This document shows positions 40,651 through 48,630 of a stretch of 57,256 bases of DNA, in pieces (position 1 is the stretch's first letter; each line of letters opens with the position of its first letter). The notes under the pieces were generated by a model, which was not told where the DNA came from, made no database searches, and saw only the letters and a program-made list of their open reading frames with translations. Where the stretch lies: contig JAHJDG010000071.1 of the NCBI GenBank assembly GCA_018812265.1, positions 1 to 57,256 on the forward strand, written 5' to 3'. The DNA comes from a bacterium. GTDB taxonomy: Bacteria; Electryoneota; RPQS01. The position numbers were made by a program, and so were the translations under genes.

Positions 40651-41919
40651 CTACCGGTCCAGTTCTCCACCGATCATGTTGACGGATCCGAACGTGGGGA
40701 TGATGTCGGCCAGCATGAAGCCATTGATCATCTCGGGCAAGGCCGCCACGAAATTAAGGCACGGCGGACGACAGCGCACCCGCCACGGACGGTCATTGCA
40801 GCCGTCGGTTGAGTTCTCGCCGGGCTGACTCACCACGTAGTATCCGAGTTCGCCGTTGCCCGCTTCCACCGCGAAGTACACCTCACCCTGCGGAACGCGA
40901 ATCCCGTGGCCGTCCATGATGAGTTTGAAGTGATTCATCAGCCCTTCGATATTTCCATACGTGTCTTTTTTCGAGGGCAGCACGACGCGCTTGTCGTCAC
41001 AGGAGACCGGCCCGTCGGGAATCTTCGTGATGCACTGCTCGAGAATCCGGCATGACTGCTCCATCTCCTCCATGCGGACGAGATAGCGGTCGAAGTTGTC
41101 CCCGTTGTGACCGACGGGAACCGTCCAATCAAGCTGATGATAGATGAGATACGGATAATCTTTGCGAACGTCGTAGCCGACTCCCGTGGAGCGCAGACAC
41201 GGACCCGTGAAACCCCACGCCAGCGCGCGATCGGGCTTGATGACTCCCACGCCCTGCGTGCGCTCGACGAAGATACGGTTGTAGGTGAGCAGTGTATCGC
41301 ATTCCTTGAGAATGCGGCGAGTCTCGGCAAGCGTCCACGTGATCTTGTCCAGCCAGCCGTCGGGCAGGTCATGGGGCATACCGCCCACCCGTGAGCAGTT
41401 GGTGGTGACCCGCGCTCCACAGTAGTCTTCGATCAGTTCGTAGTAATACTCACGGCCAATCATCATATATAGGAAGACGGTGAACGCTCCCAGCTCCATC
41501 GCCGCCGCGCCTACACAGGTCAGATGATCGGCGAGCCGCGAGATTTCACAAAGCATGGTGCGAAGGTATTGCCCGCGCATCGGTAGTTCAAGACCGAGCA
41601 GCTTCTCCACCGCCATGCAATAGCCGACGTTGTTGATGCAAGGGGAAACGTAGTTCAGGCGGTCGGTGTAGATGAGCGACTGATTCCAGGTGGAAGCCTC
41701 GCAACTTTTCTCGAATGCCCGGTGCAGGTAGCCGATTTCCACCTCCGAATCCACCACCAGCTCGCCCTGCAGTCGGGTGGCAATGCGGATGATGCCGTGC
41801 ATGGCCGGATGCGACGGCCCCACGTTGAGCAGCATATCCTGAGTGCGGAATTCCGATTCCGTCTCGGGAATCGCACGTTCAACGTCGTAGGGTTCGGCGA
41901 TGATTTTCTTCTCGTTCAT
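40651..41919 (-). CDS. nuoD: NADH-quinone oxidoreductase subunit D
   Basis: A 422-residue 49-kDa-type subunit homologous to NiFe-hydrogenase large subunits. Segments LNVGPSHPAMHGIIR (quinone-site His-rich loop), EIGYLHRAFEK, DRLNYVSP and the terminal FGSVNMIGGELDR are as expected. It is separate from nuoC (not the fused NuoCD of enterobacteria). Confidence 0.96.
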   Translation of the reverse strand: MNEKKIIAEPYDVERAIPETESEFRTQDMLLNVGPSHPAMHGIIRIATRLQGELVVDSEVEIGYLHRAFEKSCEASTWNQSLIYTDRLNYVSPCINNVGYCMAVEKLLGLELPMRGQYLRTMLCEISRLADHLTCVGAAAMELGAFTVFLYMMIGREYYYELIEDYCGARVTTNCSRVGGMPHDLPDGWLDKITWTLAETRRILKECDTLLTYNRIFVERTQGVGVIKPDRALAWGFTGPCLRSTGVGYDVRKDYPYLIYHQLDWTVPVGHNGDNFDRYLVRMEEMEQSCRILEQCITKIPDGPVSCDDKRVVLPSKKDTYGNIEGLMNHFKLIMDGHGIRVPQGEVYFAVEAGNGELGYYVVSQPGENSTDGCNDRPWRVRCRPPCLNFVAALPEMINGFMLADIIPTFGSVNMIGGELDR

Positions 41920-43370: not shown

Positions 43371-43982
43371 CTATGACTTGAGGATCAGCCGGTGAAGCTT
43401 ATAGGCAAGCGGCGGAACAATAACGAGCTGGGCAATCATTCCGGGAATGGCCGGTATAATAAGAACCATCGCGTAGTAATCAATCTCGCGAATTCCGGTC
43501 ACTACGACGGATACGGCGATGTAAGTCACTCGCCCGGCGATCATGGCCACCAGCATCGCGAGGACCATTGCGGCAATCCGTCCGATTCGCGGCGGCAGAC
43601 CTTTAACCGTCGGCAACGCATGGAGCATGATCGAGGTCATCAGTCCGTAAACCGCCAACTCCGGCATCATTCGCAATACTTGCGCCGCCGTGGGCATACC
43701 GGTCAGTCCCATGGACAAGGCCGGAGCAAGAATCCCCACCATCGCCGCATGAATCGGCCCGAGCAGCATTCCCCCGAGAAAGACCGGGAAATGCATCGGC
43801 AGGATTACGCGTGGAGACCAGCCAAAGGGGTGGATAAAAAACGGAAGGACGACTCCCAGAGCCACACAGACAGCAGCGGTCGCCAGAGCCTCAGCTCCCC
43901 GAGCCGGAGGGGCAAAGGGTACAGCCGACTTGCTACCTCTTTCACGAGCCGGGCCAATCGTACCGGTTCGGGTGCGACTCAT
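43371..43982 (-). CDS. ECF transporter S component (substrate-binding membrane subunit)
   Basis: 203 residues from ATG 43982 with about six TM helices. The line LPMHFPVFLGGMLLGPIHAA..LSMGLTGMPT matches the S-component family PF12822 (vitamin and micronutrient uptake); the vitamin cannot be named. Frames back to 44099 exist, but the predicted transcript start (about 44064) excludes them. No ECF A, A' or T genes are close, so it presumably uses a shared energising module encoded elsewhere. It seems to head the nuo transcription unit. Confidence 0.78.
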   Translation of the reverse strand: MSRTRTGTIGPARERGSKSAVPFAPPARGAEALATAAVCVALGVVLPFFIHPFGWSPRVILPMHFPVFLGGMLLGPIHAAMVGILAPALSMGLTGMPTAAQVLRMMPELAVYGLMTSIMLHALPTVKGLPPRIGRIAAMVLAMLVAMIAGRVTYIAVSVVVTGIREIDYYAMVLIIPAIPGMIAQLVIVPPLAYKLHRLILKS

Positions 43983-44070
43983 CCTGCCAAGCTTAGGGAC
44001 AAAAAAATTGTTTCTATTTGTGTTACGTATCAGAAGCGGCCCCTTAAAGGCTGCTCCAGCCTGAATCGCT

Positions 44071-44099
44071 AAACTACGGAGAACTTTCCACATTGTCAA
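44071..44099 (-). promoter_or_regulatory. Promoter of the ECF-S/nuo unit
   Basis: On the minus strand a perfect TTGACA (44099-44094), a 17-base spacer, then TAGTTT (44076-44071). The start would be near 44064. It is the only good promoter-like match between nuoA and the next gene. Confidence 0.5.
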
Positions 44100-44222: not shown

Positions 44223-46148
44223 CTACTTCTTCTCCATCAAGACGAGGCGGTATTTGGGAAGCTCAATTGCCTCGAAAGCTTGTCGAACGGTCGCAAATTC
44301 ACCTGGGGGCACAAGATCGGCCTTAATTTCGATTGTCTGCGTCCATGTCATCGTCGCTTCTCCGCGCCGCGAGTGCACCTCCATGCGGACGAACGGATTA
44401 TCTATCAGGAGCGTGGGCGGCACGGCTGCCACTTGGAACCCGTCCGGGATTGTCAGAGTGAATTCGCCGATGAATTGCGCTCGACCGGGGAGTTTCACCG
44501 GATACCGAACTTCGGGCAGTGAAGGAAAGAAATCCGGTCGCGCAAACTCAAACGGGGCGAGTGGGATTTCCATGAGCAGGTGTCCATTTTCTCGCGTGGC
44601 ATAGTTCGGCGATTCGAAACCAAGAGACACGACGACGGGTGCCGACAGATCCACCACATTAGAGACCGAAAAATTGGTGACGCGCGTGCCCGGCCGGATT
44701 CTCCCGGCCGCCGATTCCGCGAAGAGTCCACAATCTTCAGAGCTCAAATCCCGAAATCGGGCACGTACCTGCGCCGTCTGATCTCCTCGCGGGATACACG
44801 TCAGGCGGCCCGAGAGATCGCCGGTGGAGGTCAGCGTGGCCCGGATTTCCGTCCGGGCGCCTCGCATTGCCGTCGGTCCCGGCGGCACACTCTCGATGAG
44901 CGGGATTCCCGGAAGCAACATGCAACCCATTCCGTACGTATCCGCATAGGGAAGCATTCCCGGCGGGTAGTACTCGGCCATCGGATCTACCCAGAGCGTG
45001 TCGGAACCAATAGGAACTGCGAGGATGACGTGGCGAAACTGCTCGAGCACGGGAAGATTCGAGAACGGCACATGCTCGCCCGAAACCAGAACCGGAATCG
45101 GCCCGTATCCGTAGCCTCGCATCAAGGCCGTCAGCAATACCGCCTTGTCCTGCGAATCACCGTAGCCGTTCTGCCAGACACGATCGGCCGAGTTGGGCTC
45201 GTACCCGATTCTACCGAACGGCAGATGAACGGAGCGGATCCGATGAAGTACGAAAGTCGCGACGTTCATGAGGGCCGGCACAGCCTGCAGATCGGGAGCG
45301 GTTATGGCCGACCAACTCTGCACGGCTTCCTCCGACAGTTCAACCTTTTCCCAGAAATTCTCCGACACAAACAGCCCCAAATCCTCCCAATCGGCAAACG
45401 TCGTCCAAGCCAGTCGCGGGACGATGAACGACAGATTTACCATGTCCGGCTCGGGAACAACCGGCGGGATGTCTCTCTTTGTCCACTGATAGGAAATGCA
45501 TCCGTCTGCTTCAGTTACTACGGGATCGAAACTATCATGTGTCATTTCGAATCGGATTCGCCGATTCACTGCCGTTTCGATCACGTAGCTTTTCTCCAGA
45601 ACGGGATCGAAATCCCCGAAAAGAACAACGTCTCCGGTATGGGGTGTTGCAGGCGCTTTCGTCCCCGGCTTCGGTTCGATTCGATAGGCGAAATACAACG
45701 CCGCCCCGACATCGAGATTCGGAAACGAGACCCGTTGTTCTTTCAAGCGCGAATAGGCCGCCGCCCACTTCACCTCGGGCGCGAGGGAAAGCGTGAATGC
45801 CTCCGGCTCAGGCTCGATCCATGTTCCATCCGCCAGACGCACGCGCGCGGCCTCAATAATCACCGTGTCCCTGCCGGAATCGAATTGCACCACTTGCTCA
45901 CGGAACGCGCTTGCGCCCCGTTCGTCGAGAATCCGGCACAGAAACTCGCGGTGCTTGTATGTGAAACCGACCGAGTCCAGTTTCACGATCTCTCGATCAT
46001 ACAGGATCACCGCCGATGCCTGCGGATACACGTCTGCTCCGCCAATACCGTCGAGAAGGCTGTCCAACTCCCCGGCCCGAAGGTTGGGGGTGGTGAAGAC
46101 GACCAACAGCCAAACGGCGAAGAGGACGATGGATTCACGGATTCTCAT
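44223..46148 (-). CDS. DUF3857/transglutaminase-like exported protein, nucleophile Cys replaced
   Basis: 641 residues from ATG 46148, which opens on a signal peptide (RIRESIVLFAVWLLVVF). Residues of about 50-230 form the DUF3857 beta domain (VIIEAARVRLADGTWIEP). The transglutaminase core follows around 285-400: NGYGDSQDKAVLLTALMRG, then EQFRHVILAV with the His and LWVDPM with the Asp. In active members the first motif is G-D-C-K-D-K-A; here Ser332 takes the Cys position. The remaining 230 residues are a DUF3858-like beta domain. This suggests a non-catalytic or Ser-based relative. It is probably periplasmic. It stands alone, with a terminator of the upstream gene before it. Confidence 0.85.
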   Translation of the reverse strand: MRIRESIVLFAVWLLVVFTTPNLRAGELDSLLDGIGGADVYPQASAVILYDREIVKLDSVGFTYKHREFLCRILDERGASAFREQVVQFDSGRDTVIIEAARVRLADGTWIEPEPEAFTLSLAPEVKWAAAYSRLKEQRVSFPNLDVGAALYFAYRIEPKPGTKAPATPHTGDVVLFGDFDPVLEKSYVIETAVNRRIRFEMTHDSFDPVVTEADGCISYQWTKRDIPPVVPEPDMVNLSFIVPRLAWTTFADWEDLGLFVSENFWEKVELSEEAVQSWSAITAPDLQAVPALMNVATFVLHRIRSVHLPFGRIGYEPNSADRVWQNGYGDSQDKAVLLTALMRGYGYGPIPVLVSGEHVPFSNLPVLEQFRHVILAVPIGSDTLWVDPMAEYYPPGMLPYADTYGMGCMLLPGIPLIESVPPGPTAMRGARTEIRATLTSTGDLSGRLTCIPRGDQTAQVRARFRDLSSEDCGLFAESAAGRIRPGTRVTNFSVSNVVDLSAPVVVSLGFESPNYATRENGHLLMEIPLAPFEFARPDFFPSLPEVRYPVKLPGRAQFIGEFTLTIPDGFQVAAVPPTLLIDNPFVRMEVHSRRGEATMTWTQTIEIKADLVPPGEFATVRQAFEAIELPKYRLVLMEKK

Positions 46149-46209
46149 GCTGGGAACATCCAAAGATAGACGCACGCGCAGGTCCCTCATGTTCGCATTC
46201 CATTCACAT

Positions 46210-46248: not shown

Positions 46249-46278
46249 AACCGCCCCGCGGCATGCCGAGGGGCGGTT
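46249..46278 (-). terminator. Intrinsic terminator of the thioester-domain gene
   Basis: A 9-bp perfect stem AACCGCCCC / GGGGCGGTT, with a nested CGGC/GCCG in the loop. On the minus strand it is followed by TGCTTTTCG. It is 23 bases after the stop at 46302. Confidence 0.8.
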
Positions 46279-46301: not shown

Positions 46302-47888
46302 CTACTTCATCAGCACCATCTTCTTGGTGATGGACGACCCGCCCGCCGTGAGCTTGTAGAAGTACAGACCGGTAGGCAGATCATTTGCCCGGAAAACCAC
46401 GGCATGTTGACCGGCCGAATAATGTCCATTGGCCAACGTGGCTACCTCGCGACCGATCGCATCATACACCTTCAGACTGGTAAAACCACCCTCCGGCAGC
46501 GAAAAGCGAATCCGGGTTTCGGGATTGAACGGATTCGGGTAGTTATCCGCAAGGAAGAATTCTGCGGGCAGAGGCGCCTCGTCACCGTGAAAGCTGGCCG
46601 TACGGATCCAATCATGGGTTGTGCGAATACCACTCAGATCCACGTCCACCAGACGAAATTCGTAGACGACTCCCGGTTCCGCCGTCTGGTCGGTGAAGCG
46701 GTATACATGACCGCTTGCCGCACCGGCACCGGCCAGGGAGGCGATCCGCGAGAATGACGATTCCCCGGCCACGCTGCGTTCGATTTCCCAGCGATCCACA
46801 TTGGTCTCGGAGGCCGTCCGCCAGACGATCTCGATTCCGCTCGAACCCGAGTAGGCCTCAAATGAGGCAAGCTCGGCCGCCAGGAAATGATCTTCCAGGG
46901 TCACGCAGGTGTCGAATGGTGTCATCGTCCGGAACGGCGCTATCACCAGCCGCTGAGTCTGGAAGTTCGGATTGCAGGGATCCACGCGCCGCGGCCAGTA
47001 TCCCTTCGTGCACGCCAGGACAGTAACCGGCATAAGACCTTCCGCGATAGGATTGGACACCGTCACCTGGGCGTGACCAAACTCATCGGTGTGTACGGTA
47101 TCTTCGCTGAGCGTCCCTTCGCTCGTCGTCAGAATAACCTTCACCCCGCCGAGGCCCGTGTTACCCAATCTCAGAGCCATAAATCCCCGACGCAACTGAA
47201 TATGCACAATCAATTCCGACATGCTGCCGTTGATGATCGGACCGGTTGAGGTCAATCGCAGCGAATCCCCGGGCATCATCACGTTCTTGGGAAGTCCGTC
47301 CGTCTCGCCCGTGGCAAACGTTACCAGCGCATTGGCCGGATTGTTGATTGCCGGAGCGGTGTGAAACACCGAGTCCTGATTGGGCCTCAGCGGTGGACAA
47401 TAATACGGAATGCCGTTGGGGGCGTCATCGAGTTTCCAGAGAGCCATTTGCAGAATATCGTCGCCCAATGCCGAGGTATCGCCCCACCACGTCATGATAT
47501 AGGCCAGCGCCGGAATCTGAACCGCGCAATGCGGATTCATCGGAGAGTCGTAGATCACCACACAATATGGATTCTGGTTCAGACCGTGGGTGATATCCAC
47601 ACAGTAGGCATAGAGGGGATCCGGCTCGCAATTGCTGTTAAACCGGAAGATACCCATCGCGCCACTATAGTGCCCGGTCGGCCAGTGAACGGTTCCCGGA
47701 TTCCCACCTCCGTTCACCAATCCCGTGTAGTCAATCATACATGTGTCGTTGTCCAGTGAACCGAAACTGCCGCGATTCCAAACGGGCGTCCAATCGTCAG
47801 GGCCTCCTTCACTATCCACGACGGCGAAGGCTTGGATTGCGAAAGCCAACATTGCCGCCATCCACAACATCATCAGAGCATTCTTCAT
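46302..47888 (-). CDS. Secreted protein with thioester-domain-like module and sorting tail
   Basis: 528 residues behind a GAGGAG ribosome site. A signal peptide (MMLWMAAMLAFAIQAFA) is followed by a region with YAYCVDITHG (Cys96) and DDILQMALWKL (Gln147). A Y-C-x-D and Q-x-A-x-W pair is the hallmark of thioester domains (PF08341 type), where the Cys and Gln form an internal thioester that attacks host or surface amines. Next come an Ig-like beta domain (about 230-330), a fibronectin-like segment (ERSVAGESSFSRIASL) and the FCB tail DNYPNPFNPETRIRFSL..KKMVLMK. The thioester call rests on this motif pair alone. It is probably a surface adhesin, transcribed alone from a promoter 170-200 bases upstream. 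Confidence 0.78.
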   Translation of the reverse strand: MKNALMMLWMAAMLAFAIQAFAVVDSEGGPDDWTPVWNRGSFGSLDNDTCMIDYTGLVNGGGNPGTVHWPTGHYSGAMGIFRFNSNCEPDPLYAYCVDITHGLNQNPYCVVIYDSPMNPHCAVQIPALAYIMTWWGDTSALGDDILQMALWKLDDAPNGIPYYCPPLRPNQDSVFHTAPAINNPANALVTFATGETDGLPKNVMMPGDSLRLTSTGPIINGSMSELIVHIQLRRGFMALRLGNTGLGGVKVILTTSEGTLSEDTVHTDEFGHAQVTVSNPIAEGLMPVTVLACTKGYWPRRVDPCNPNFQTQRLVIAPFRTMTPFDTCVTLEDHFLAAELASFEAYSGSSGIEIVWRTASETNVDRWEIERSVAGESSFSRIASLAGAGAASGHVYRFTDQTAEPGVVYEFRLVDVDLSGIRTTHDWIRTASFHGDEAPLPAEFFLADNYPNPFNPETRIRFSLPEGGFTSLKVYDAIGREVATLANGHYSAGQHAVVFRANDLPTGLYFYKLTAGGSSITKKMVLMK

Positions 47889-48060: not shown

Positions 48061-48089
48061 AATATAGTTTCTTGAACTTGCAGTGTCAA
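48061..48089 (-). promoter_or_regulatory. Promoter of the thioester-domain gene
   Basis: On the minus strand a perfect TTGACA (48089-48084), 17 bases, TATATT (48066-48061). The leader would be about 165 bases. Confidence 0.7.
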
Positions 48090-48241
48090 GTCAACTTTAT
48101 ATATATACGAAGTATCTTCGCAGGATGTTATATAATATAGACGACAACAAAGTGGTCGAGTTACCTATTTAACACATCTTTGATACCTGATTAGAAAGTC
48201 CTCACCGAAACCGGCCCATGAGCGACGTATCGGATCGAGCC
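48090..48241. other. AT-rich intergenic region before tRNA-Ala
   Basis: No gene visible. It holds a short dyad CGAAG-TAT-CTTCG at 48108-48120 and several TATAAT-like runs (48128-48138), in strong contrast to the GC-rich surroundings. It separates divergent transcription units. Confidence 0.5.
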
Positions 48242-48270
48242 TTGACTCTCAGGCCGCATTTGTATATCTT
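48242..48270 (+). promoter_or_regulatory. Promoter of tRNA-Ala / SRP RNA
   Basis: TTGACT (48242-48247), 17 bases, TATCTT (48265-48270). The start would be near 48277, five bases before the tRNA, as expected for a short-leader stable RNA. Confidence 0.7.
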
Positions 48271-48281
48271 TCTGAGCCTTT

Positions 48282-48357
48282 GGGGCAGTAGCTCAGCTGG
48301 GAGAGCACCACGTTCGCAACGTGGGGGTCGGCGGTTCGAGCCCGCTCTGCTCCACCA
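48282..48357 (+). tRNA. tRNA-Ala (anticodon CGC)
   Basis: A 76-base cloverleaf with the CCA encoded. The acceptor stem GGGGCAG pairs with CTGCTCC, including the G3-U70 wobble that defines alanine identity. The D arm is AGCTCAGCTGGGAGAGC, the anticodon arm has loop TTCGCAA (anticodon CGC), and the T arm contains GGTTCGAGCCC. It reads GCG codons. Confidence 0.97.
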
Positions 48358-48394
48358 AGAGAAGCGCCGAACAGCGCTGATGGTTTTCTTGTCT

Positions 48395-48523
<129 letters not shown>

Positions 48524-48630
48524 GAATTTTCCCTATAGATTGAACATATGGACACTCGCTATTGCTCATTCAATCCAAGCTAAGTCGCGGATTTTTAAAA
48601 AATCGGAGTTGTGTTCGATATTACAGTGAG

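Follow-up and report, generated by a model that had tools for sequence, protein, structure and literature searches.

Does a gene of an Electryoneota bacterium encode an adhesin that would attach covalently to its target through an internal thioester? The question is raised by a gene on contig JAHJDG010000071.1 (assembly GCA_018812265.1), whose whole stretch of 57,256 nucleotides was analysed and is called the window here. Thioester domains allow a covalent reaction with a target, as was shown for SfbI and fibrinogen, and a 2015 survey places such domains exclusively in Gram-positive bacteria (PMC4450167). An original prediction, made from the letters of the window, had read the encoded protein as a Gram-negative-type thioester adhesin, with Cys96 and Gln147 as the bonding residues. 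We favour a modified form of this reading, with a probability of roughly 0.55: a secreted surface protein with a class II thioester-domain fold, a predicted Cys96-Gln312 thioester and covalent attachment to a target. The predicted fold of two models, conservation and the presence of type IX secretion system (T9SS) genes all speak for an adhesin of this type, whereas the partner first proposed for the cysteine, Gln147, is probably wrong and Gln312 is the better one.

Gene and protein architecture

The gene, the parts of its product and the flanking signals are listed below.

46302..47888 (-): whole gene, 528 amino acids, encoding a putative T9SS-exported class II-like thioester-domain protein (open reading frame call and alignment of nine full-length family members)
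47823..47888 (-): putative signal peptide, residues 1-22, cleavage after AFA (translation read by eye, no predictor)
47289..47756 (-): thioester-domain-like head, residues ~45-200 (AF2 model and Foldseek searches with two models)
47601..47603 (-): codon of Cys96 (YCVD), the candidate thioester cysteine (invariant in 9/9; motif [YFL]C-Phi-zeta, PMC4450167)
47448..47450 (-): codon of Gln147 (LQMALW), the glutamine of a TQxxPhiW-like helix motif and not the expected bond partner (in helix 140-152; spacing)
46887..47276 (-): Ig-like beta-sandwich, residues ~205-334, a class II-type insert that includes the Gln312 excursion (AF2; weak Big_1; intimin matches)
46953..46955 (-): codon of Gln312 (TQRLV), the candidate thioester glutamine (invariant in 9/9; like-placed Gln in nine plasmid domains)
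46554..46886 (-): FN3-like module, residues ~335-445 (by eye; common to many T9SS cargo proteins of the genome)
46314..46541 (-): T9SS type A sorting tail, residues 450-525 (PF18962 and TIGR04183)
48061..48089 (-): promoter-like site TTGACA-17-TATATT upstream of the gene (11/12 consensus positions)
46250..46271 (-): terminator-like stem-loops 3' of the gene (two found against a shuffle mean of 1.5, a weak signal)

Promoter-like sites number six in the region, against a shuffle mean of 2.2. In the AF2 model the head consists of strands followed by three helices (124-134, 140-152 and 179-193), and residues 23-328 occur only once in their own genome at E <= 1. The Ig-like domains of the original prediction are a fair description of what follows the head: one module is FN3-like by eye, and one sandwich is Big_1-like, at 20.5 bits in a Pfam hmmscan and thus under the cut-off of 34.9, with weak Pfam matches to Big_1 in five of the nine family members. 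As modelled, this Big_1-like sandwich is the class II-type sandwich.

The YPNPFN tail proved to be a genuine T9SS type A sorting domain, scoring 35.7 bits with PF18962 (cut-off 27) and 40.9 bits with TIGR04183 (cut-off 23). The same genome encodes PorU (654.7 bits, cut-off 420; matched in 2 of 14 control genomes, both under the cut-off) and SprA (770.4 bits, cut-off 200; matched in 0 of 14), so the sorting tail has machinery to use, and from these two genes we take the cell to be of Gram-negative type. The LPXTG cell-wall anchor, near-universal in Gram-positive TIE proteins, is absent, the C-terminus being the T9SS tail instead. The genome (G000) is very rich in T9SS type A cargo: when 150 of 222 candidates were scored, the protein gave at least 150 matches, the gene itself included, and almost all of these cover the tail in its C-terminal third. 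In more than 20 other places the similarity runs from residue ~311-338 to the C-terminus and takes in the FN3-like module.

A family with invariant cysteine and glutamine residues

Among 39 genomes of the phylum, a search with the single sequence matched nine at E <= 0.01. A profile search matched 14 of the 39 at E <= 1, but only eight at E < 1e-20, in 11 places that comprise nine complete genes and two contig-edge pieces. The latter (L021 and L022, G031) were excluded from the alignments; by eye, L022 retains the cysteine, and L021 retains the helix glutamine and the late glutamine. All eight positive genomes belong to two families within one order, which has 13 genomes in the set, and in a genome of the same genus (G034, 91% complete) the profile did not find the domain. 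Weak profile matches elsewhere in the phylum (10 places, E 0.003 to 0.5) are confined to the Big_1-like part (positions 203-277). A match in G024 (E 6e-4) was to a different protein lacking the motifs; it vanishes with the profile and was dropped. A wider contig search led to three loci, all among contigs already found (G032, G033 and G025), while viral contigs held no relative and a viral structure library gave none at E <= 0.001.

The eight other complete proteins are 37-47% identical to the window protein over their full length. Invariant in all nine proteins are Cys50, Cys87, Cys96, Gln147, Cys293, Cys305, Gln312 and Cys328.

In known thioester domains, the bonding cysteine stands in the motif [YFL]C-Phi-zeta, most domains have a helix with TQxxPhiW, and the bonding glutamine comes late, in Phi-Q-zeta-Phi-Phi (PMC4450167). 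Translation of the gene places Cys96 within YAYCVD and Gln147 within LQMALW. When the protein is shuffled 20,000 times, a Cys...Gln-Trp pair of this kind arises in 14 cases, and the strict pattern occurs in five of 340 open frames of at least 200 amino acids (window and fetched loci), all five being family members, with the window protein among them. Four of the nine family members miss the strict pattern, having Trp before the cysteine or Thr after it, and still keep the cysteine and the glutamine; those of the 340 frames that encode plasmid thioester domains miss it as well. In the helix motif, Gln and Trp are invariant (9/9) and Thr is not kept. The spacing from Cys96 to Gln147 is 51 residues in the window protein and 51-53 across all nine, and the spacing from the cysteine to the helix glutamine, counted on alignments, is 54 in SaTIE and 55 in EfmTIE86. 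Of the two thioester signatures originally proposed, the first thus stands, since Cys96 fits the cysteine motif and the pair goes beyond chance; the second was probably misassigned, in that Gln147 corresponds to the TQxxPhiW helix glutamine and not to the bonding one.

The invariant Gln312 is likely the better candidate for the partner of Cys96, which would give a Cys96-Gln312 thioester. In class II domains the sandwich delivers the bonding glutamine into the head on a hairpin, and in BaTIE the bond joins Cys71 and Gln266, a distance of 195 (PMC6194298). In the TIE protein of the Bacillus subtilis plasmid pLS20, the bonding glutamine was assigned from a model and conservation as Gln256 (PMC8092201). 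We checked this numbering: Gln256 lies in YQRLM, where the window protein has Gln312 in TQRLV, and the cysteine motif reads YCID in pLS20 and YCVD here. Nine pLS20-like plasmid domains all have the late glutamine, and in eight of them xL comes next. In our family QxL is found in six of the nine proteins, and V, Q or I takes the place of the leucine in the other three. The residue before Gln312 is mostly non-hydrophobic in the family, a position that varies in the plasmid set too. The distance from Cys96 to Gln312 is 216 in the window protein and 230-240 in its homologues, compared with 188 in pLS20. Such values fall in the range of class II domains, in which a sandwich stands between the cysteine and the glutamine.

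Disulfides or a thioester

The alternative that survives best is a thioester-domain fold without a thioester: Cys96 would take part in a disulfide, as Cys50, Cys87, Cys293, Cys305 and Cys328 may, and the domain would bind non-covalently or serve a structural role. We consider it unlikely, while giving it more weight than any other competitor. In its favour, six cysteines are strictly invariant in all nine proteins, an even number. Several other cysteines co-vary across the nine in pairs as disulfides would: 206/325 in four proteins, 227/276 in two, 231/272 in two, and 120 or 121/164 in three. This paired gain and loss suggests that these residues form disulfides. In addition, Gln312 lies in a stretch with pLDDT < 50, and Cys96, in a block with a mean pLDDT of 63, borders residues 97-105 (< 50). 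The model therefore cannot show a contact between Cys96 and Gln312, which we infer.

On the other side, Cys109, present in eight of the nine proteins, turns the core odd. With the co-varying pairs set aside, residues 45-334 hold the same seven cysteines (50, 87, 96, 109, 293, 305 and 328) in five of the nine (the window protein, L012, L013, L014 and L015), and such an odd core fits one cysteine, that of the thioester, outside disulfides. In L017 nine cysteines are left, and the argument needs an extra assumed pair, 82/115; it fails for L016, L018 and L020. As the six invariant cysteines are even in number, we regard the odd core as support and not as proof. A disulfide would also leave unexplained why Cys96 stands in a YC-hydrophobic-D motif, at the expected distance from a TQxxPhiW-like helix, and why a late glutamine, needless for a pure disulfide domain, is invariant.

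Predicted fold

Residues 40-334 of the window protein gave an AF2 model with a pTM of 0.80 and a mean pLDDT of 76, and a second AF2 model, of a homologue 36% identical over the modelled stretch, had a pTM of 0.69 and a mean pLDDT of 66. When the window model was compared with the PDB by Foldseek, the top four matches were the class II chains 6fwy_A and 6fwy_C (EfmTIE86) and 6fwv_B and 6fwv_A (BaTIE), with E-values from 4.3e-7 to 9.5e-6 (6fwy_A 4.3e-7, 6fwv_B 1.7e-6); apart from these, only intimin (6e-4) came within E <= 0.001. With the homologue model, these four chains were found again and were the sole matches at that threshold (6fwy_A 5.5e-7, 6fwv_B 4.4e-4). SaTIE (6FX6) is not among the Foldseek matches listed and served for motif spacing only. 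A final strand (325-333) follows the Gln312 stretch, which would put Gln312 on an excursion of the sandwich like that of class II domains. The combination of AlphaFold with fold searches has already revealed diverged thioester domains (PMC9210967), a precedent by which we count the approach as established.

Could the match to class II domains instead be driven by the sandwich, the protein being an unrelated lineage-specific head joined to an intimin-like Ig domain (Big_1)? Whole-domain TM-scores are low (0.28-0.34, query-normalised), and VIA superposes the window model on 224 residues of 6fwv_A (Z 8.8, rmsd 9.3 Å) and 225 of 6fwy_A (Z 8.0, rmsd 10.8 Å), Z-scores close to the 7-8 that, according to the tool, are usual when a model matches nothing clearly. 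The higher VIA matches of the window model are mostly to the sandwich alone, led by intimin chains (Z 11.0, 89-93 residues), and the best 50 VIA matches listed for the homologue model include no thioester domain. The weak Big_1 matches in five of the nine proteins, and the failure of sequence profiles to find thioester domains, point the same way. Against this, Foldseek ranks class II domains above every intimin chain with both models, in alignments that span the whole length: 305-332 columns for the thioester domains, compared with 88-137 (window model) and 118-195 (homologue model) for intimin. Moreover, the head by itself has the cysteine motif and the TQxxPhiW-like helix motif at the right spacing. 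We thus judge an unrelated head to be somewhat more doubtful still than a thioester-domain fold without the bond.

A thioester between Cys96 and Gln147, as first proposed, is very improbable, because, although both residues are invariant (9/9), Gln147 lies inside the central helix 140-152 of the AF2 model at the helix-motif spacing, and its equivalent in solved domains hydrogen-bonds to the cysteine backbone and was dispensable for the bond in mutagenesis of a Cpa domain (PMC4450167).

Sequence-profile searches

The match to the thioester-domain profile PF08341 that the original prediction led one to look for was not obtained: there is none at E <= 10 in the window protein or in the nine N-terminal stretches of the family. 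Across the phylum PF08341 has matches in two genomes, both short of its cut-off of 22 bits: a homologue scores 11.6 bits and an unrelated protein 12.2. In the window's own genome it has none (0/1), and as the 14 control genomes also give 0, this does not demonstrate absence. For the head, hmmscan with Pfam and NCBIfam (whole protein and nine N-terminal stretches) and phmmer against PDB sequences gave nothing significant, and a PDB profile search gave no thioester domain. Comparison by hhalign with sets of nine and five plasmid thioester domains reached a probability of at most 0.4%, with the wrong residues aligned.

These failures are weak evidence, since even the known class II domains are poorly detected from one another. 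As a positive control, the pLS20 TIE domain scores 23.6 bits with PF08341, above the cut-off of 22, and also exceeds the PF20610 cut-off; searched alone against the PDB, it found no class II domain at E <= 0.1. A plasmid profile found SaTIE (E 2.8e-4) and EfmTIE86 (E 0.01) but missed BaTIE even at E <= 10. As the window protein lies under the PF08341 cut-off, we do not file it as a member of that family.

Proposed mechanism and known systems

The architecture, the fold match, the conservation and the T9SS genes come from prediction and comparison; from these we infer bond formation, surface anchoring and a target, in the following manner. Sec would carry the protein over the inner membrane. 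The three-helix head would hold Cys96, and the excursion of the Ig-like sandwich would return Gln312 to the head, where, on folding, the two residues would condense spontaneously with loss of ammonia to give the internal thioester; Gln147 on the central helix may help to place Cys96. Passage through the outer membrane would be by the T9SS, with PorU removing the tail and retaining the protein at the surface. An amine of the target, for example of a lysine, could then attack the exposed thioester, so that an isopeptide bond would link cell and target. Type A proteins of Bacteroidetes are said to be covalently linked to anionic LPS (PMC9143113). The protein could be a tether that is covalent at both ends, its C-terminus fixed by PorU to the surface of the outer membrane and its N-terminus bonded to a target amine through the Cys96-Gln312 thioester, an idea that we put forward tentatively and at somewhat less than even odds.

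The closest known proteins are the class II TIE domains (BaTIE 6FWV, EfmTIE86 6FWY and SaTIE 6FX6). They share with the window protein the predicted fold, a helical head and a sandwich with a glutamine excursion, as well as the cysteine motif, a TQxxPhiW-like motif at similar spacing and a position after the signal peptide. The window protein differs in having no detectable sequence homology to them, in its conserved extra cysteines, and in carrying a T9SS tail and no LPXTG anchor in a Gram-negative-type cell. The pLS20 TIE protein, whose class II domain is needed for efficient conjugation, differs in its Cna-type stalk (PMC8092201) and in lying above the PF08341 and PF20610 cut-offs; it is also plasmid-borne, whereas the window gene stands beside housekeeping genes in four loci.

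Viewed from its other end, the protein resembles T9SS type A cargo (TIGR04183), with a sorting tail above the curated cut-off and PorU and SprA in the genome, but such cargo with a thioester-domain head was not found in the literature searched. Among the papers listed for thioester domains together with T9SS, Por_Secre_tail or Gram-negative adhesins there was no joined case. The nearest are Gram-negative adhesins with intramolecular isopeptide domains and a Por_Secre_tail, which are alike in covalent chemistry and sorting tail; their isopeptide bonds are internal and stabilising and do not react with a target (PMC12617251). What would be new here is thus the predicted thioester-domain fold on T9SS cargo, thioester domains and T9SS cargo each being already known. 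If the reading is right, the thioester-adhesin mechanism extends from Gram-positive to T9SS bacteria by way of a domain that escapes sequence searches. With a fold-level member on T9SS cargo, the mechanism would exist on both sides of the cell-envelope divide, below the level of sequence detection.

Genomic setting

The gene has a conserved place in four loci (the window, G027, G028 and contig C155 of G033), with a block of NADH-dehydrogenase and DUF3857 genes on one side; in three of these (the window, G027 and G028) a dnaX-recR block, named by sequence inspection and not by family search, is on the other. In G029, G031 and G025 there is no neighbour in common with the window. At L072 and L076 (G029 and G031) the gene is off the conserved place, among other proteins with which it has ~190 residues in common, probably the C-terminal module. 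Sample origin is named for the contigs of two relatives, a mine and a marine site, with no pointer to an animal host.

The DUF3857 protein that adjoins the thioester-domain gene in the window (44223-46190, minus strand) has serine in place of the transglutaminase-type cysteine (GDSQDKA), and three orthologues also lack the cysteine (L070:6716-8698, L071:13449-15386 and L074:6790-8715). Two DUF3857 paralogues keep it (GVCRDKA) and score as Transglut_core (L071:10619-12619 and L074:9824-11803); in L071 and L074 it is these that directly adjoin the thioester-domain gene. The substrate-specific component of an ECF transporter is encoded at 43371-44099 (minus strand; PF12822, 40.8 bits), with a relative at a like place in L070 and L074. 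A tRNA-Gln call at 41275-41361 (plus strand), opposite to and within the Complex1_49kDa gene, is probably false. Upstream of the thioester-domain gene lies a tRNA-Ala (cgc) at 48282-48357 (plus strand), overlapped by a 117-amino-acid open reading frame (48202-48555) that is likely spurious.
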